A stretch of DNA of 58,930 bases from Planctomycetota bacterium (GTDB lineage: Bacteria; Planctomycetota; Phycisphaerae; Phycisphaerales; SM1A02). The notes beneath the pieces are model-generated. The model saw only the letters and a program-made list of their open reading frames with translations, searched no databases and was not told where the DNA came from. This document shows, piece after piece, positions 6,866 through 31,216 of this stretch (position 1 is the stretch's first letter; every line of letters begins with the position of its first letter). The stretch spans positions 1-58,930 of the forward strand of contig JAQCEQ010000015.1 of NCBI GenBank assembly GCA_027618565.1, in the 5' to 3' direction. The position numbers and the translations under genes are program-made.

Positions 6866-8395
6866 ATGCCTCCAGCCAAGCCGGTCGTCGCCGCGGATCC
6901 ATCAGTCGTCGTTATCTTCGGGGCGTCCGGGGACCTGACCTCCCGCAAGCTCCTGCCGGCGCTTTACGAGATGGACCACCTGGGGCTCCTGCCCAAGGCG
7001 ACCAGGATCATCGGCGTGGCGCGTCGGGACAAGACGGACGACGAGTGGCGCGAGGAAATGCGCGCGAGCGCCGCCGAACACGCGACCAACTTTGACGCGG
7101 CGGCGTGGCAGTCGTTTGCCAAGCGAGTCTTCTATCACGCGGCCGACGCGACAGTAGCGGACGACTACGCCGGTATCGCCCAGCGCATCAAGGCGATCGA
7201 CCCCACGAGTGAGACGAAGGGCAACATCCTCTTCTTCCTGTCGGTGGCGCCGTCCCTCTACGCGCCGATCACGCGCGCGGTGGGGACCAGCGAGTTGGTC
7301 GTAGAAGGTCGTCGATGGTGCACCCTAGACCCTGCGAACCGTTCGTGGCAGCGCGTGGTGATCGAGAAGCCCTTTGGCCACGACGCCACCAGCGCCGCGG
7401 AGCTCAACCGCGAGCTGGCACAGGTCTTTGACGAGACCGCCATCTTCCGCATCGACCACTACCTGGCGAAGGATGTGGTGCAGTCCACGCAGGTCCTCCG
7501 ATTTGCCAACACGATCTTTGAGCCGGTGTGGAACCACCGCTATGTGGACCATGTCCAGATCAGTGCGTGCGAGACCCTGGGCGTGGAGGATCGCGTCGCG
7601 TTCTACGACCAGACCGGTGCCCTTCGCGACATGATCCAGTCGCACTTGATGCAGGTGTTTGCCTTCATCGCGATGGAGCCACCCGCGCGCATGTCGGCGC
7701 AGGACATCCAGGCGGAGAAGCTCAAGGTGGTCCGGTCGATCCGCCCCGTGGCCGCCGGCGATGTCACGGAATCGTGCGCGTTCGGGCAGTACGGGGGCGG
7801 GCCGGAGTGCACGCCGTATGTGGATCTTCCTGGCGTGGCCAAGGGGTCCACGACAGAGACTTTTGCGGCGATCCGGCTTGAAGTGGACAACTGGCGATGG
7901 GCGGGTACGCCCTTTTACTTCCGCAGCGGCAAGCGGCTGGCAGAGAAGCGAACGGAGGTCGTTGTGCAGTTCAAGGAGCCAGCAGCGGACCTGTTCACGG
8001 GCGTGCCGCACCCGCACGGACGGGTCTCCGGGAATCGACTCGTCCTGCGCATCGCGCCACAAGAGGGTGCCAGGCTCACCTTTTCCAGCAAGGTGCCGGG
8101 GCAGGGGATCCAGATTCGCCCGACGCACATGGATGTCGACTTCCAGAAGGAGTTCGGCTCCGAAACCGTGGAGGCCTACGGGCCGCTCTTCATCGACGCC
8201 ATGCGCGGCGACCAAACGCTCTTCAAGCACCGGCTTGAGGTGGAAGGCGCATGGGATGCCGTGATGCCCTACATCGATGAGCGAAGTGCCGACGCTCGCA
8301 AGGCGATCGCCTCCAACTACGCGCCCGCATCGTGGGGGCCAGCCGCTGCTGAGGCGCTCATGGCGCGCGATGGCCGCGCGTGGAACACCGACTGA
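6866..8395 (+). CDS. zwf: Glucose-6-phosphate 1-dehydrogenase
   Basis: 509 aa, the usual family length. The enzyme oxidises glucose-6-phosphate with NAD(P)+ to 6-phosphogluconolactone, the entry step of the oxidative pentose phosphate pathway. The nucleotide-binding motif FGASGDLTSRKLLPALY lies near residue 18. The substrate site RIDHYLAKD lies near residue 194 (usual form RIDHYLGKE), and the catalytic histidine is in MIQSHLMQVFAFIAMEPP. No pgl or gnd lies beside it. It follows the membrane locus by 59 bp and its convergent neighbour is the tRNA-binding gene. The ATG start is chosen because the Rossmann strand begins only 14 residues later. Confidence 0.96.
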   Translation: MPPAKPVVAADPSVVVIFGASGDLTSRKLLPALYEMDHLGLLPKATRIIGVARRDKTDDEWREEMRASAAEHATNFDAAAWQSFAKRVFYHAADATVADDYAGIAQRIKAIDPTSETKGNILFFLSVAPSLYAPITRAVGTSELVVEGRRWCTLDPANRSWQRVVIEKPFGHDATSAAELNRELAQVFDETAIFRIDHYLAKDVVQSTQVLRFANTIFEPVWNHRYVDHVQISACETLGVEDRVAFYDQTGALRDMIQSHLMQVFAFIAMEPPARMSAQDIQAEKLKVVRSIRPVAAGDVTESCAFGQYGGGPECTPYVDLPGVAKGSTTETFAAIRLEVDNWRWAGTPFYFRSGKRLAEKRTEVVVQFKEPAADLFTGVPHPHGRVSGNRLVLRIAPQEGARLTFSSKVPGQGIQIRPTHMDVDFQKEFGSETVEAYGPLFIDAMRGDQTLFKHRLEVEGAWDAVMPYIDERSADARKAIASNYAPASWGPAAAEALMARDGRAWNTD

Positions 8396-13721: not shown

Positions 13722-14543
13722 TCATGCCAGCTCGACCGGGCACGCACCCCGCGAAAACGAGACCGGTCTGGTCGGCTCGCCCCGTAACGCGACCACCGTG
13801 CACCGGGCCAGCGCCGACGAACGGAGCTCGATCGCCCTCCGCGCCAGCGCGGGGTGGTTGCAGTCGCGCGACAAGTGAAGCAGCAATAGGTGTTGGAGCG
13901 CGGATCGTTCCGCGATCGCCATCACAGCGTCGGCGCATTGGTCGTTGCTCAGGTGCCCGTGCGGTCCCATGATCCGCTCCTTCAGGAATGCCGGGCGGGG
14001 CGACGAGCGCTGCATGTCGGGGTCGTAGTTGGACTCGATCCCCAGCACGTCCAGGTCAACAAAAGCGTCCAGCATGGCGCGAGGGCATTCCCCCAGGTCG
14101 GTGGTGTACCCAATCCGCCCCGCGGCACTCTCCACGACAAACGCGGTGCTGCCAAGATCATCGTGCGGAACCGCGACCGCCGTCACGCTGGCGAGCGAGC
14201 CCAGCTGGAAGGTGTCGGCGACGACGCGCAGGCACGACGACGGCACGCCGGCATCCAGAGCCGCGCCCCTGAGCCCGGATCGAACCACGACCGGGACGGG
14301 GTTGCGCTCCAGCTGCCGCGCCCACCCGCGCTGCCAGTGGTCGCTGTCCAGGTGCGTGAGCAGGATCGCGCCCACCACCAGCCCCGGGACGCACGCCTGC
14401 GCCATCTTGCGTCGGACCGCGGACGGAGAGAGACCGGCATCAAGCAACAGGCACTTTCGACTGAGCGACCCAAAGGACAGCACGGTCGAGTTCCCGCTGG
14501 AGCCGCTTCCGAGGACAGTGAGGGTCGCGAAGGTGCCGTCCAT
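13722..14543 (-). CDS. YycJ/VicX-like metallo-beta-lactamase-fold hydrolase
   Basis: 273 aa with ATG at 14543; upstream codons in the same frame are low-complexity and are rejected. The opening LTVLGSGSSGNSTVL, the HLDSDH metal motif, YTTDLGECP, GPHGHLSNDQCADAV and HLSRDCNHP follow the order of the YycJ/WalJ family, proposed single-strand exonucleases. The usual HxHxDH motif here reads HLDSDH, so the second metal-binding histidine is an aspartate. The rest of the metal site appears intact. It lies between purF and an LpxA-like remnant. Confidence 0.8.
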   Translation of the reverse strand: MDGTFATLTVLGSGSSGNSTVLSFGSLSRKCLLLDAGLSPSAVRRKMAQACVPGLVVGAILLTHLDSDHWQRGWARQLERNPVPVVVRSGLRGAALDAGVPSSCLRVVADTFQLGSLASVTAVAVPHDDLGSTAFVVESAAGRIGYTTDLGECPRAMLDAFVDLDVLGIESNYDPDMQRSSPRPAFLKERIMGPHGHLSNDQCADAVMAIAERSALQHLLLLHLSRDCNHPALARRAIELRSSALARCTVVALRGEPTRPVSFSRGACPVELA

Positions 14544-20922: not shown

Positions 20923-20997
20923 GGCCCCATCGTCTAGCCTGGTCTAGGACACATCCCTCTCACGGATGGGACAGGGGTTCAAATCCCCTTGGGGTCA
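20923..20997 (+). tRNA. tRNA-Glu (anticodon CTC)
   Basis: 75 nt. The acceptor stem GGCCCCA pairs with TGGGGTC (one G-U pair), with discriminator A. The anticodon arm CATCC-CTCTCAC-GGATG places CTC in the loop, decoding GAG. The T arm AGGGG-TTCAAAT-CCCCT is regular. CCA is not encoded: CTG follows the discriminator. It closely resembles the second tRNA 100 bp downstream. Confidence 0.95.
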
Positions 20998-21097
20998 CTG
21001 GTCGGAGCCGTTGGATCGAGGACTGGCGCGTGAGAGGCGCCGACCACCAGCCCGAGCCACTGCCACGCGCCACGGCGCGTTCAGCGGCTCGATTCCT

Positions 21098-21172
21098 GGC
21101 CCCGTCGTCTAGCCTGGTCTAGGACACCTCCCTTTCACGGAGGCGACACGGGTTCAAATCCCGTCGGGGTCA
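21098..21172 (+). tRNA. tRNA-Glu (anticodon TTC)
   Basis: 75 nt. The acceptor stem GGCCCCG pairs with CGGGGTC, and the anticodon arm CCTCC-CTTTCAC-GGAGG gives anticodon TTC, decoding GAA and GAG. The T arm ACGGG-TTCAAAT-CCCGT is regular. CCA is not encoded. No separate promoter is visible in the 100-bp spacer, so it is probably processed from a transcript shared with the upstream tRNA. Confidence 0.95.
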
Positions 21173-29263: not shown

Positions 29264-29826
29264 GCGCGCGATCGTAGGCGCGCGGCCGTGCGGGCCGGCG
29301 CCTGTGCTGTCCGCGCCGCGCTCACCCTCATCGAGTTGGCGCGCAAGGTCGAGATCGGGGCAGGCGATGGCATCGGCGCAATGATCGTCGCCGCGTGCAC
29401 TTGGCCGATGTAGACCTCTCGATCGCCGCCGATGTCCAGGTGGCGGACCATCTCGCAATCGAACCAGCCATGCACGCGCGAGGGCATGAGGAGCCCGCTG
29501 GGGAGCCGGTGCACCGGGAGCCCCAGGAATCGATCCTCATGAAGCGCCGGCGACCGACCGAACAGCCTGGAGAGCGCGCACGGGTGACTGGGCAGCAGGC
29601 CAATGGCGAAACGGCGGGAATCGCGGATCATGGGGCTCAGGGCCAGCCCTTTCTCCATCGCGACGAAGAGGAAGGGGGGAGTGCCGGACACTCGCGTCAC
29701 CGTTTCGATGATCGAGGCTTCGGAGTGTTCCCCCAGCCGCGAGGCCAGCAAAAACCGCCCATTGGGGAGCAGAGCGGCGACGGGGTCCACAATCTCAAGG
29801 GATGCAGGCTGAAAATCGGTAGCCAC
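29260..29826 (-). CDS. Flavin-reductase-like split-barrel protein
   Basis: 188 aa with a GTG start at 29826, chosen because AAAGGAA lies 8 bp upstream. A longer open frame runs back through the mraZ promoter and is rejected. The domain shows the FMN-binding split-barrel pattern (SGTPPFLFVAMEKGLALSPM, then RRFAIGLLPSHPCALSRLFG and HGWFDCEMVRHLDIGGDREV). Relatives reduce flavin or use it for small-molecule redox. It is coupled to the amidohydrolase gene, and its start faces mraZ across about 200 bp. Confidence 0.75.
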   Translation of the reverse strand: MATDFQPASLEIVDPVAALLPNGRFLLASRLGEHSEASIIETVTRVSGTPPFLFVAMEKGLALSPMIRDSRRFAIGLLPSHPCALSRLFGRSPALHEDRFLGLPVHRLPSGLLMPSRVHGWFDCEMVRHLDIGGDREVYIGQVHAATIIAPMPSPAPISTLRANSMRVSAARTAQAPARTAARLRSRA

Positions 29827-29968
29827 GTCAAGTTCCTTTGGTCCGAGAACTGAGGCGGGGAAGTTGTCCACATTGTCGCACAACTCTTTGAAAAAACAAT
29901 GGTTAGGAGCGAATGCCAACGGAATCGTGAGGTTTAGATCCAGAATCAGACCGGAAATTGTTGAGTTG

Positions 29969-30008
29969 TGTTGCATTGTGGGGCATTGTGGGGTACTGTG
30001 TTGTTGTG
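29969..30008 (+). promoter_or_regulatory. MraZ-type operator: four 10-bp direct repeats
   Basis: Units of exactly 10 bp begin at 29969, 29979, 29989 and 29999. The two central units start TGGGG, and the outer two start TGTTG. The second halves are CATTG, CATTG, TACTG and TTGTG. In E. coli MraZ binds TGGGN direct repeats separated by 5 nt, which is the same 10-bp spacing. The array ends 16 bp before the mraZ start and overlaps the promoter at 29971-29999, so autorepression is expected. Confidence 0.75.
29971..29999 (+). promoter_or_regulatory. Probable mraZ promoter embedded in the operator
   Basis: TTGCAT (29971-29976) and TACTGT (29994-29999) are separated by 17 bp. Transcription would start near 30006, giving a leader of less than 20 nt and no clear Shine-Dalgarno sequence, so mraZ may be translated from a near-leaderless RNA. 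The hexamers coincide with the direct repeats. Confidence 0.5.
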
Positions 30009-30024
30009 CCGCTCGGCCACACCC

Positions 30025-30432
30025 ATGTTTCTCGGCGAATTCCAACACACCTTGGACGCGAAGCAGCGTCTCGCCATTCCGAACGAGCTTCGGAAGTGTT
30101 GGCGAGAAGCAGAGCACGGCGAATCGATGGTCGCGGCGCCTGGGCAGAACGGTGCGCTCTGGCTGTGGCCGGAGAAGACCTTCGACAAGCTGGCGGGCGA
30201 CTTGGGTACCTCACTTCGAGAAGAGGCGCCGATGGCGGATTTTCAGCGTCGACTCTTCAGCCAATCTGCGGTGCTCACGATCGACGGCTCGGGACGAATC
30301 AGGATCCCCGAGCGGATGCTGGCCAAGTACGGCCTCTCCGGCGAGATCGTCGTGATCGGGGCCGGCCAGCACATGGAACTCTTCAGCACCCATGGATGGG
30401 CGCTGGAACTGGAGAGGATCTCGCAGGCGTGA
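30025..30432 (+). CDS. mraZ: Transcriptional regulator MraZ
   Basis: 135 aa with ATG 30025 (MFLGEFQHTLDAKQRLAIP). It carries two SpoVT/AbrB-type half-domains with the DxxxR motifs, TLDAKQRLAIP and TIDGSGRIRIP. MraZ is a ring-forming DNA-binding protein that usually leads the dcw division and cell-wall cluster and represses it. Here no rsmH, ftsL, ftsI or mur gene follows. Instead comes a structured RNA region and csrA. It is therefore an orphan mraZ, as expected in planctomycetes that lost FtsZ-based division. Confidence 0.93.
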   Translation: MFLGEFQHTLDAKQRLAIPNELRKCWREAEHGESMVAAPGQNGALWLWPEKTFDKLAGDLGTSLREEAPMADFQRRLFSQSAVLTIDGSGRIRIPERMLAKYGLSGEIVVIGAGQHMELFSTHGWALELERISQA

Positions 30433-30475
30433 ATGGACTCGCGCCCACGGGCCTCTCCCGATTGAATCAGTCGGC

Positions 30476-30761
30476 ATCGAGCGCAGGGAGTGCGCGCGGT
30501 GGCCGAGAGGCGGCAGGAGGCCGCTTCCAGGACTTCGCCCCGTGCCGCAGGAAGCGGCTGGCGCGGATGTTGGTAGGGGCACCACTCGTCGGCAGGCTTT
30601 TGTCCACGGGTTGAGCCCTCGTTCGTGAGTGCTGGGTCAGGGACGACCCGCAAGAGGTGTCGTGCCAGGATGGCGCGACACCGAGTATGTGAGGATCGAA
30701 GGGACTCGATCCGACCCCGTCGTAGCCTCCGCATCACCTCGTGTGGTGCGGAGGCTTTTTT
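30476..30761 (+). ncRNA. Putative CsrB/RsmZ-like CsrA-sequestering RNA
   Basis: Six hairpins present GGA in their loops: GGGAG at 30486-30490 (5-bp stem 30481-30495), AGGAG at 30515-30519 (stem 30510-30524), AGGAA at 30549-30553 (stem 30544-30558), AGGGAC at 30639-30644 (stem 30634-30649), AGGAT at 30667-30671 (11-bp stem 30656-30682) and AGGGAC at 30700-30705 (7-bp stem 30693-30712). A terminator ends the region at 30761. This is the layout of CsrB, RsmY and RsmZ RNAs, which titrate CsrA. csrA lies 218 bp downstream. The 5' end is not defined. No strong own promoter is visible, so the RNA may be cut from the mraZ 3' UTR. RNase P RNA, tmRNA and SRP RNA signatures are absent. Confidence 0.7.
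30725..30761 (+). terminator. Intrinsic terminator after the mraZ/sRNA unit
   Basis: A 13-bp stem (30725-30737 with 30743-30755, one G-U pair, core GCCTCCGCA/TGCGGAGGC) with a 5-nt loop is followed at once by six T residues (30756-30761). It is the clearest intrinsic terminator in the window and separates the mraZ/sRNA unit from csrA. Confidence 0.92.
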
Positions 30762-30872
30762 CAACCGATTCCCGGCTGTTCCGGTTCGGATGATGTTGAG
30801 ATGCGGTGCAGAACCCGGTGCGGTGTGGGCCATAACCACGGATCCTGGCGGCTTTTGTCGAGGACCTGAGGG

Positions 30873-30979
30873 CCTGCTTCCGAAAGAGGACTACGCTTCA
30901 GGAAGCAGGCGGATCGACACGCCTCGAAGCTCACGATGGAGCGGCACTCCGCCGGCTCCATGGACAGGAGGTCCCCAGA
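30873..30979 (+). promoter_or_regulatory. csrA leader with SD-occluding CsrA-type hairpin
   Basis: A 9-bp stem CCTGCTTCC (30873-30881) with GGAAGCAGG (30901-30909) carries GAGGA in its 19-nt loop. Just before the start, GGAC (30962-30965) pairs with GTCC (30971-30974) around the loop AGGAG, which is also the Shine-Dalgarno sequence, 9 bp from ATG 30980. The leader holds eight GGA triplets from 30840 on. CsrA-bound mRNAs show this geometry, so autorepression of csrA is inferred. Confidence 0.6.
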
Positions 30980-31216
30980 ATGCTGGTCATCACACGAACA
31001 GAAGGCGAAGAGGTTGTGATTGGCAACCCCAAAGCGCCGTTGGGAATCATCCGGGTGTCGGCCGTGAAGGGCGATCGGGTGCGCCTCGCGTTTGATTTCC
31101 CGAAGGAGATCGAGGTGAATCGGAAGGAAGTCGCTGAGCAGAAGGCCAAGCATGGAGTCGGCGACCCAGCTCAGGATGTCCTTCGAAAGATCGGCCCGGG
31201 TCCGGGAGGAGACTGA
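30980..31216 (+). CDS. csrA: Translational regulator CsrA/RsmA
   Basis: 78 aa. The sequence MLVITRTEGEEVVIG, then IRVSAVKGDRVRLAFDFPKEIEVNRKEV, is the complete CsrA fold, including the arginine of VNRKEV that contacts GGA RNA (Arg44 in E. coli). The last 20 residues are a flexible tail. CsrA binds GGA in hairpin loops and blocks ribosomes or changes mRNA stability. fliW, the protein antagonist found in many flagellated bacteria, is not in the window. A candidate antagonist RNA lies directly upstream. The Shine-Dalgarno AGGAGG is strong. Confidence 0.95.
   Translation: MLVITRTEGEEVVIGNPKAPLGIIRVSAVKGDRVRLAFDFPKEIEVNRKEVAEQKAKHGVGDPAQDVLRKIGPGPGGD

Follow-up and report, generated by a model that had tools for sequence, protein, structure and literature searches.

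The described systems closest to the locus reported here are CsrB and CsrC, and RsmX, RsmY and RsmZ, of the Gammaproteobacteria. These RNAs carry several GGA loops of the ANGGAN type in short hairpins and end in a terminator. The available part of PMC7652899 describes Csr sRNAs as widespread in Gammaproteobacteria and the protein FliW as anti-correlated with them and found elsewhere. In the accessible text of PMC7366521, antagonism by sRNA and by FliW is termed mutually exclusive. Planctomycetes are named among the lineages possibly using FliW (PMC4682653, partial text).

Titration of CsrA by part of an mRNA is described outside the Gammaproteobacteria in Campylobacter jejuni, where the flaA mRNA leader titrates CsrA (PMC4894983, partial text). 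An ncRNA possibly regulating CsrA is mentioned for Leptospira biflexa in the available portion of PMC8668096, so there is some precedent for candidates outside the Gammaproteobacteria. A literature search that left most subscription papers outside its reach found no report of a CsrA-binding RNA from planctomycetes.

The locus described here is an array of GGA-loop hairpins 3' of mraZ in a planctomycete. It differs from CsrB and RsmZ in its phylum and in its position 3' of mraZ, often beside csrA, and from C. jejuni flaA in that the latter is the leader of a flagellin mRNA. FliW serves the same end that the array would serve, lower CsrA activity, but is a protein. The array is probably a CsrA-titrating RNA from the mraZ transcript, CsrB/RsmZ-like in action and unlike any described family; its binding, its expression and a discrete transcript are inferred. 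A conserved planctomycete array of this kind would mean that RNA sponges for CsrA had evolved, or been retained, at a great distance from the Gammaproteobacteria. It would supply CsrA with an RNA antagonist in genomes where FliW is not found, and it would link CsrA to the cell-division regulator MraZ.

Anatomy of the hairpin array

The window is the whole stretch of 58,930 nucleotides that was analysed, contig C6 of a 2.26 Mb genome (G000) in 62 contigs. A hairpin scan finds six GGA-loop hairpins at 30481-30712, between mraZ and csrA. The features of the region are the following.

29967 to 29999, plus strand: MraZ-box-like direct repeats 5' of mraZ, GTGTTG / TGTGGGG / TGTGGGG in 10-nt steps, recognised from sequence
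30025 to 30432, plus strand: mraZ, presumed host gene of the transcript (PF02381, 68 bits; ATG start inferred)
30481 to 30495, plus strand: GGA hairpin 1, loop GGGAG, pair probability 0.96-1.0
30507 to 30527, plus strand: GGA hairpin 2, loop AGGAG, pair probability about 0.5
30544 to 30558, plus strand: GGA hairpin 3, loop AGGAA, pair probability 0.99
30634 to 30649, plus strand: GGA hairpin 4, loop AGGGAC, pair probability 0.47; hairpin also in congener G001
30656 to 30682, plus strand: GGA hairpin 5, loop AGGAT, pair probability 1.0; within a chance-level TwoAYGGAY match at 30630-30683
30693 to 30712, plus strand: GGA hairpin 6, loop AGGGAC, pair probability 0.7-0.8; identical hairpin in G001
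30724 to 30762, plus strand: intrinsic terminator at the array end, 14-pair stem, 5-nt loop and T run
30962 to 30974, plus strand: hairpin GGAC-AGGAG-GTCC covering the csrA Shine-Dalgarno, seen in the sequence and recurring in the family; may be a site of CsrA autoregulation
30980 to 31216, plus strand: csrA, presumed target of the array (PF02599, 47.9 bits)

The initial annotation had placed six GGA stem-loops and a closing intrinsic terminator between mraZ and csrA. The scan recovers all six at the same places, with the same loops and with stems of 5-11 bp, together with the terminator, and the Pfam matches bear out the two flanking genes. The mraZ product contains two MraZ repeats (30025-30204 and 30256-30429). 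Two tRNA genes lie on the same strand at 20923-21172.

High GC makes hairpins common, and on this ground the array might be chance or general GC-rich structure. The counts speak against this. The spacer (30433-30979) contains six GGA hairpins, whereas 5000 dinucleotide shuffles have a mean of 0.66 and a maximum of 5, with six in none of the 5000. When the window is read in 300-nt stretches, the plus strand has seven GGA hairpins at the array and at most three elsewhere (two places, near 7751-8250 and 14101-14450), and the minus strand never has more than two. With the strand asymmetry, and with the covariation and the phylum comparison given below, almost nothing is left for a chance origin, which the shuffles and the phylum comparison refute.

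The folding energy of 30440-30780 is -173.7 kcal/mol; the value for 100 shuffles is -150.8 (z -4.96). Of the six hairpins, three are near certain in the predicted ensemble (0.96-1.0), and alternative pairings compete with the rest (about 0.5, 0.5 and 0.7-0.8). In the loops, GGA has a probability of 0.56-1.0 of being unpaired.

On these predicted structures, the array resembles CsrB and RsmZ anatomically and is not a member of a family described in Rfam. With the same scanner, E. coli CsrB has 5 hairpins at a stem of at least five pairs, compared with 6 in the window, and 11 at a stem of at least three, where the window again has 6. No Rfam 15 family reaches its threshold over the window array, nor in ten related loci searched. 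The top weak match in the window is TwoAYGGAY (RF01731, clan CL00106) with 21.6 bits against a cut-off of 43 and an E-value of 0.98, which is chance level; the available text of PMC2864571 gives human gut, gamma-Proteobacteria and Clostridiales for this family. RsmW (RF02809, clan CL00106) reaches 32.6 bits in L106 against a cut-off of 52 (E 0.049), and a weak NsiR1 match in L004 (E 0.025) is also under its cut-off. The original description of the RNA as CsrB/RsmZ-like thus stands for the architecture of the functional class (GGA loops, covariation, terminator) and fails for membership of an Rfam CsrA-binding family.

Conservation in relatives

The window's family (f1) comprises 73 genomes, of which 67 gave a spacer 3' of mraZ and six (G011, G015, G030, G039, G052 and G066) did not. 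In addition, csrA was used to fetch 80 loci, of which 52 have mraZ no more than about 2 kb away and 28 have no mraZ in reach. The 52 spacers read include 20 already in the set and 32 new ones, which together with L212 make up the 33 distinct others. Among the named loci retrieved through the CsrA alignment, most are titled Phycisphaerales, Phycisphaerae or Planctomycetota; the remaining titles are Planctomycetia, Planctomycetaceae, Singulisphaera, Phycisphaera mikurensis and uncultured bacterium. From these titles the order is inferred to be Phycisphaerales.

Strict GGA hairpins number 2.99 on average in the resulting 100 distinct spacers, which represent the window's family and close relatives, compared with 0.50 in shuffled sequence. 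At least two strict hairpins occur in 90 spacers and at least three in 57, and most spacers contain two to seven consensus sites. The opposite strand has a mean of 0.14 in the 44 spacers with tandem csrA and 0.50 in the 52 with convergent csrA. Four of the 44 tandem counts contain a hairpin no more than 30 nt from csrA, which is probably a csrA site rather than part of the array. Two spacers have no strict hairpin, and one of them (L014) has ANGGAC sites in weaker stems. The 32 new spacers, which come from named MAG records and include several near copies of one another, have a mean of 2.84 (0.48 shuffled; 0.06 on the opposite strand), and none is without a hairpin. Taken singly, 21 of them are matched by at most 5 of 100 shuffles and 11 by more, so single spacers are often non-significant.

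Beyond the family, strict hairpins average 1.75 in 20 regions of 600 nt 3' of mraZ that belong to other families of the same order, compared with 0.54 shuffled, and five regions have none. These regions are a subset of families f2-f6, and their means were computed by hand from the individual rows. GGA-loop arrays lie 3' of mraZ in L148 (f6, seven hairpins), L147 (f6, four) and L144 (f2, four). A phylum-wide sample was drawn from the best 30 of the mraZ matches, 29 of which were scored and one of which was too short. In these 29 mraZ 3' regions (450 nt) there is no excess (0.69 compared with 0.57 shuffled). Three regions (L232, L235 and L241) have three hairpins each, with 12, 3 and 2 of 50 shuffles as high, and ANGGAY loops are missing from most of these hairpins. 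The same-order member of this sample, L254 (G076), has two hairpins. The array, as predicted from these counts, seems to be centred on the window's order and to be uneven within it.

GGA is retained in the loops, and the stems show covariation. When 23 same-genus pairs are compared in both directions, 132 of 155 loop GGA are identical, whereas GGA outside hairpins is identical in 207 of 407. The background in the same pairs is 7293 of 18050 for any triplet outside hairpins and 1591 of 2028 for single stem bases. GGA is lost in 5 of 70 aligned hairpins, and six further hairpins could not be aligned. Counted in one direction, the stem pairs comprise 346 that are the same, 38 that are changed on both sides and still paired, 35 with a one-sided change and 40 that are broken.

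Covariation is also seen in alignment A2, which contains 17 sequences of one clade. It has 66 cells with double changes, compared with 22.3 in shuffled alignments and at most 18 in slid controls. Double changes occur in 16 of 37 pairs, 94.3% of cells are paired, and 0 of 500 shuffles do as well on any of the five measures. The GGA is invariant in all three modelled array hairpins. The A2 structure was derived from the same alignment, and the test therefore favours the structure. The number of hairpins varies among genera. The alignment of orthologous spacers had been proposed from the start as one check on this RNA, and it bears out both points, conserved GGA loops and covarying stems. At the level of sequence, there is a solid case for a conserved RNA element that is selected for CsrA-type loops.

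The loop consensus is CANGGAYG. In 299 loops the C is present in 80%, the A in 79%, the Y in 83% and the final G in 79%; at matching positions of other GGA in the same spacers the values are 39%, 32%, 57% and 39%. The closing C-G pair belongs to the stem, and its excess is partly by construction. The consensus fits the published CsrA site; there are no binding data. That site, RUACARGGAUGU, was obtained by selection and occurs mostly in hairpins with six-base loops, RsmE binds ANGGAN loops, and most selected CsrA-ligand hairpins have no more than four contiguous pairs (PMC7652899, in the portion available). The stems of the planctomycete arrays are often longer than these four-pair stems.

AGGA is also a Shine-Dalgarno core, and the window loops include AGGAG and GGGAG. 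On that account the loops could imitate Shine-Dalgarno sites or be recognised by some protein that is not CsrA. The base that follows GGA rejects the mimic. G directly after GGA occurs in only 6% of the 299 loops, compared with 24% of other spacer GGA, and the A two positions before GGA (79% compared with 32%) points the same way. We regard this reading as very improbable.

The proposed transcription unit and its action

The array stays with mraZ rather than with csrA. In the 100 spacers csrA is tandem to mraZ in 44, convergent in 52, 5' of mraZ in two and unlinked in two. In both the tandem and the convergent arrangement the array follows mraZ and shares its strand, which excludes it as a csrA leader. 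A csrA leader or attenuator is suggested only by the tandem csrA downstream of the array, as in the window and the other tandem spacers. In the 52 convergent spacers the array is on the other strand from csrA, and in the window it is set apart from csrA by a strong terminator and about 215 nt. As a general explanation the leader is refuted by the convergent loci, and we give it hardly any weight. A placement of the array behind csrA was also rejected, as the array follows mraZ after orientation by tblastn and HMM. The position beside csrA that was first noted holds in the window; the underlying linkage is to mraZ and is kept when csrA is inverted. In L027 and L126 (genus g41), mraZ is preceded by a csrA of the same orientation and still has two GGA hairpins on its 3' side.

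The initial annotation had suggested that the RNA may be a 3' UTR product of mraZ. The location of the array on the mraZ strand where csrA is inverted favours this, as does the distance from the mraZ stop to the first strict hairpin (median 68 nt, quartiles 27 and 101, range 3 to 268; 100 spacers). A terminator-like site and strict GGA hairpins occur together in 72 of the 100 spacers, and in 60 of those 72 every hairpin ends before the last terminator-like site. In 26 spacers there are strict hairpins and no terminator call. A GGA immediately 3' of the mraZ stop, outside the modelled hairpins, is invariant in all 17 sequences of alignment A2 (columns 2-4).

The preferred reading rests on an inferred transcript that would start 5' of mraZ, pass through the array of CsrA-binding hairpins and stop at the terminator. 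The array would either remain attached as the 3' tail of this mRNA or be released as an sRNA. A CsrA sponge of the same kind could alternatively come from a separate sRNA gene, with a promoter of its own within the final part of mraZ or behind it; this is unlikely, although it keeps some support. CsrB-type RNAs have their own promoters, and the array has its own terminator. In five spacers of one clade (L180, L189, L191, L192 and L230), a small hairpin followed by a poor T run lies ahead of the array, at 20-39 after the mraZ stop; this weak terminator-like site, if real, argues against read-through from mraZ. The short distance to the first hairpin, 3 nt at the minimum, leaves little room for a separate promoter. 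The first description saw no strong promoter for the array, and a sigma-70-type scan of 29800-31000 sees none either; the scan also missed the mraZ promoter and says little. The GacA/UvrY box has the upstream pattern TGTAAG-N6-CTTACA. Two matches with three mismatches are present in the window, compared with a chance mean of 3.0, and neither is near the array; the array is thus unlike the GacA/UvrY-controlled Csr sRNAs in having no box beyond chance.

Returning to the mraZ transcript, the array would bind several CsrA dimers, and free CsrA would fall, as it does with CsrB/CsrC and RsmX/Y/Z. Both the binding and the titration are inferred. Alternatively, the hairpins could bind CsrA without titrating it to any meaningful extent and act purely in cis, on how the mraZ mRNA is processed or how stable it is. 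The array is close behind the mraZ stop codon, and CsrA shields CsrB from RNase E (PMC7652899, partial text), both of which would suit an action in cis. A cis site would seem to need fewer than the two to seven sites found in most spacers. The closeness of mraZ to csrA, about 2 kb or less in 52 of the 80 csrA-fetched loci, also counts against this reading. We consider a purely cis action improbable, with a standing clearly below that of an independent sRNA gene.

The output of a CsrA-titrating mraZ transcript would be set by MraZ through autoregulation at its boxes, a control that is inferred. The repeats themselves are recurrent: TGGGN6TGGG is found 5' of mraZ at 44 of 63 loci, compared with 18 of 1260 shuffles, with at least one place (L007 and L168) entered twice among the 63. 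MraZ sites in Mollicutes are direct repeats of AAAGTG[T/G], and E. coli MraZ is an autorepressor, according to the accessible part of PMC8475190.

The CsrA linked to mraZ would be the target. It may also be a repressor of its own synthesis, acting on translation at the AGGAG hairpin that covers the csrA Shine-Dalgarno. The survey of csrA leaders covers the last 30 nt before csrA and six bases of csrA itself. Across 67 members of the family, the best GGA hairpin found there has a stem of at least three pairs in 66 and at least four in 48, compared with 51% and 25% in flank-shuffled sequence. In a few rows (such as L011, L014, L028 and L064) the best GGA hairpin does not have an AGGAG loop. These rows, and the fact that the Shine-Dalgarno is conserved on its own account, leave autoregulation no more than suggested, and there are no binding data.

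FliW and the CsrA paralogues

FliW is present in 105 of the 121 genomes searched. It was not found in the other 16, which include the window genome and both congeners, and some of these 16 are incomplete assemblies. CsrA matches at E of at most 0.001, weak ones included, occur in 116 of the 121 genomes. At least 43 csrA matches are weak, and among those listed 39 of 43 lie no more than 1 kb from fliW (compared by eye). In a few genomes the weak match is the sole csrA match. Many relatives contain two csrA genes, one adjoining mraZ and a divergent one adjoining fliW.

The array as a replacement for FliW was considered and dropped. Genomes with FliW also carry the array, and the array does not simply replace the protein. 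Flagellin was searched in 13 of the 16 FliW-less genomes and in 15 of the 105 FliW-bearing genomes, and was found in none of the former and in nine of the latter. It appears that the flagellar FliW-CsrA pair goes with flagella and that mraZ, the array and csrA persist.

A fuller reading is put forward tentatively, and we hold it at somewhat less than even confidence. The CsrA sponge would be the 3' tail of the mraZ mRNA, and the division-cluster repressor MraZ would set CsrA activity. In many of the same cells FliW would serve the second, fliW-linked CsrA. RNA and protein antagonism would then coexist on separate paralogues, with the RNA arm alone left in lineages without flagella.

The residue aligned with R44 of E. 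coli CsrA is invariant in a 15-sequence alignment. R44 is a critical RNA-binding residue of CsrA in the available text of PMC7652899. In alignment A1, four residues are inserted near residues 20-23 of the mraZ-linked CsrA, and its C-terminus extends beyond that of E. coli CsrA.
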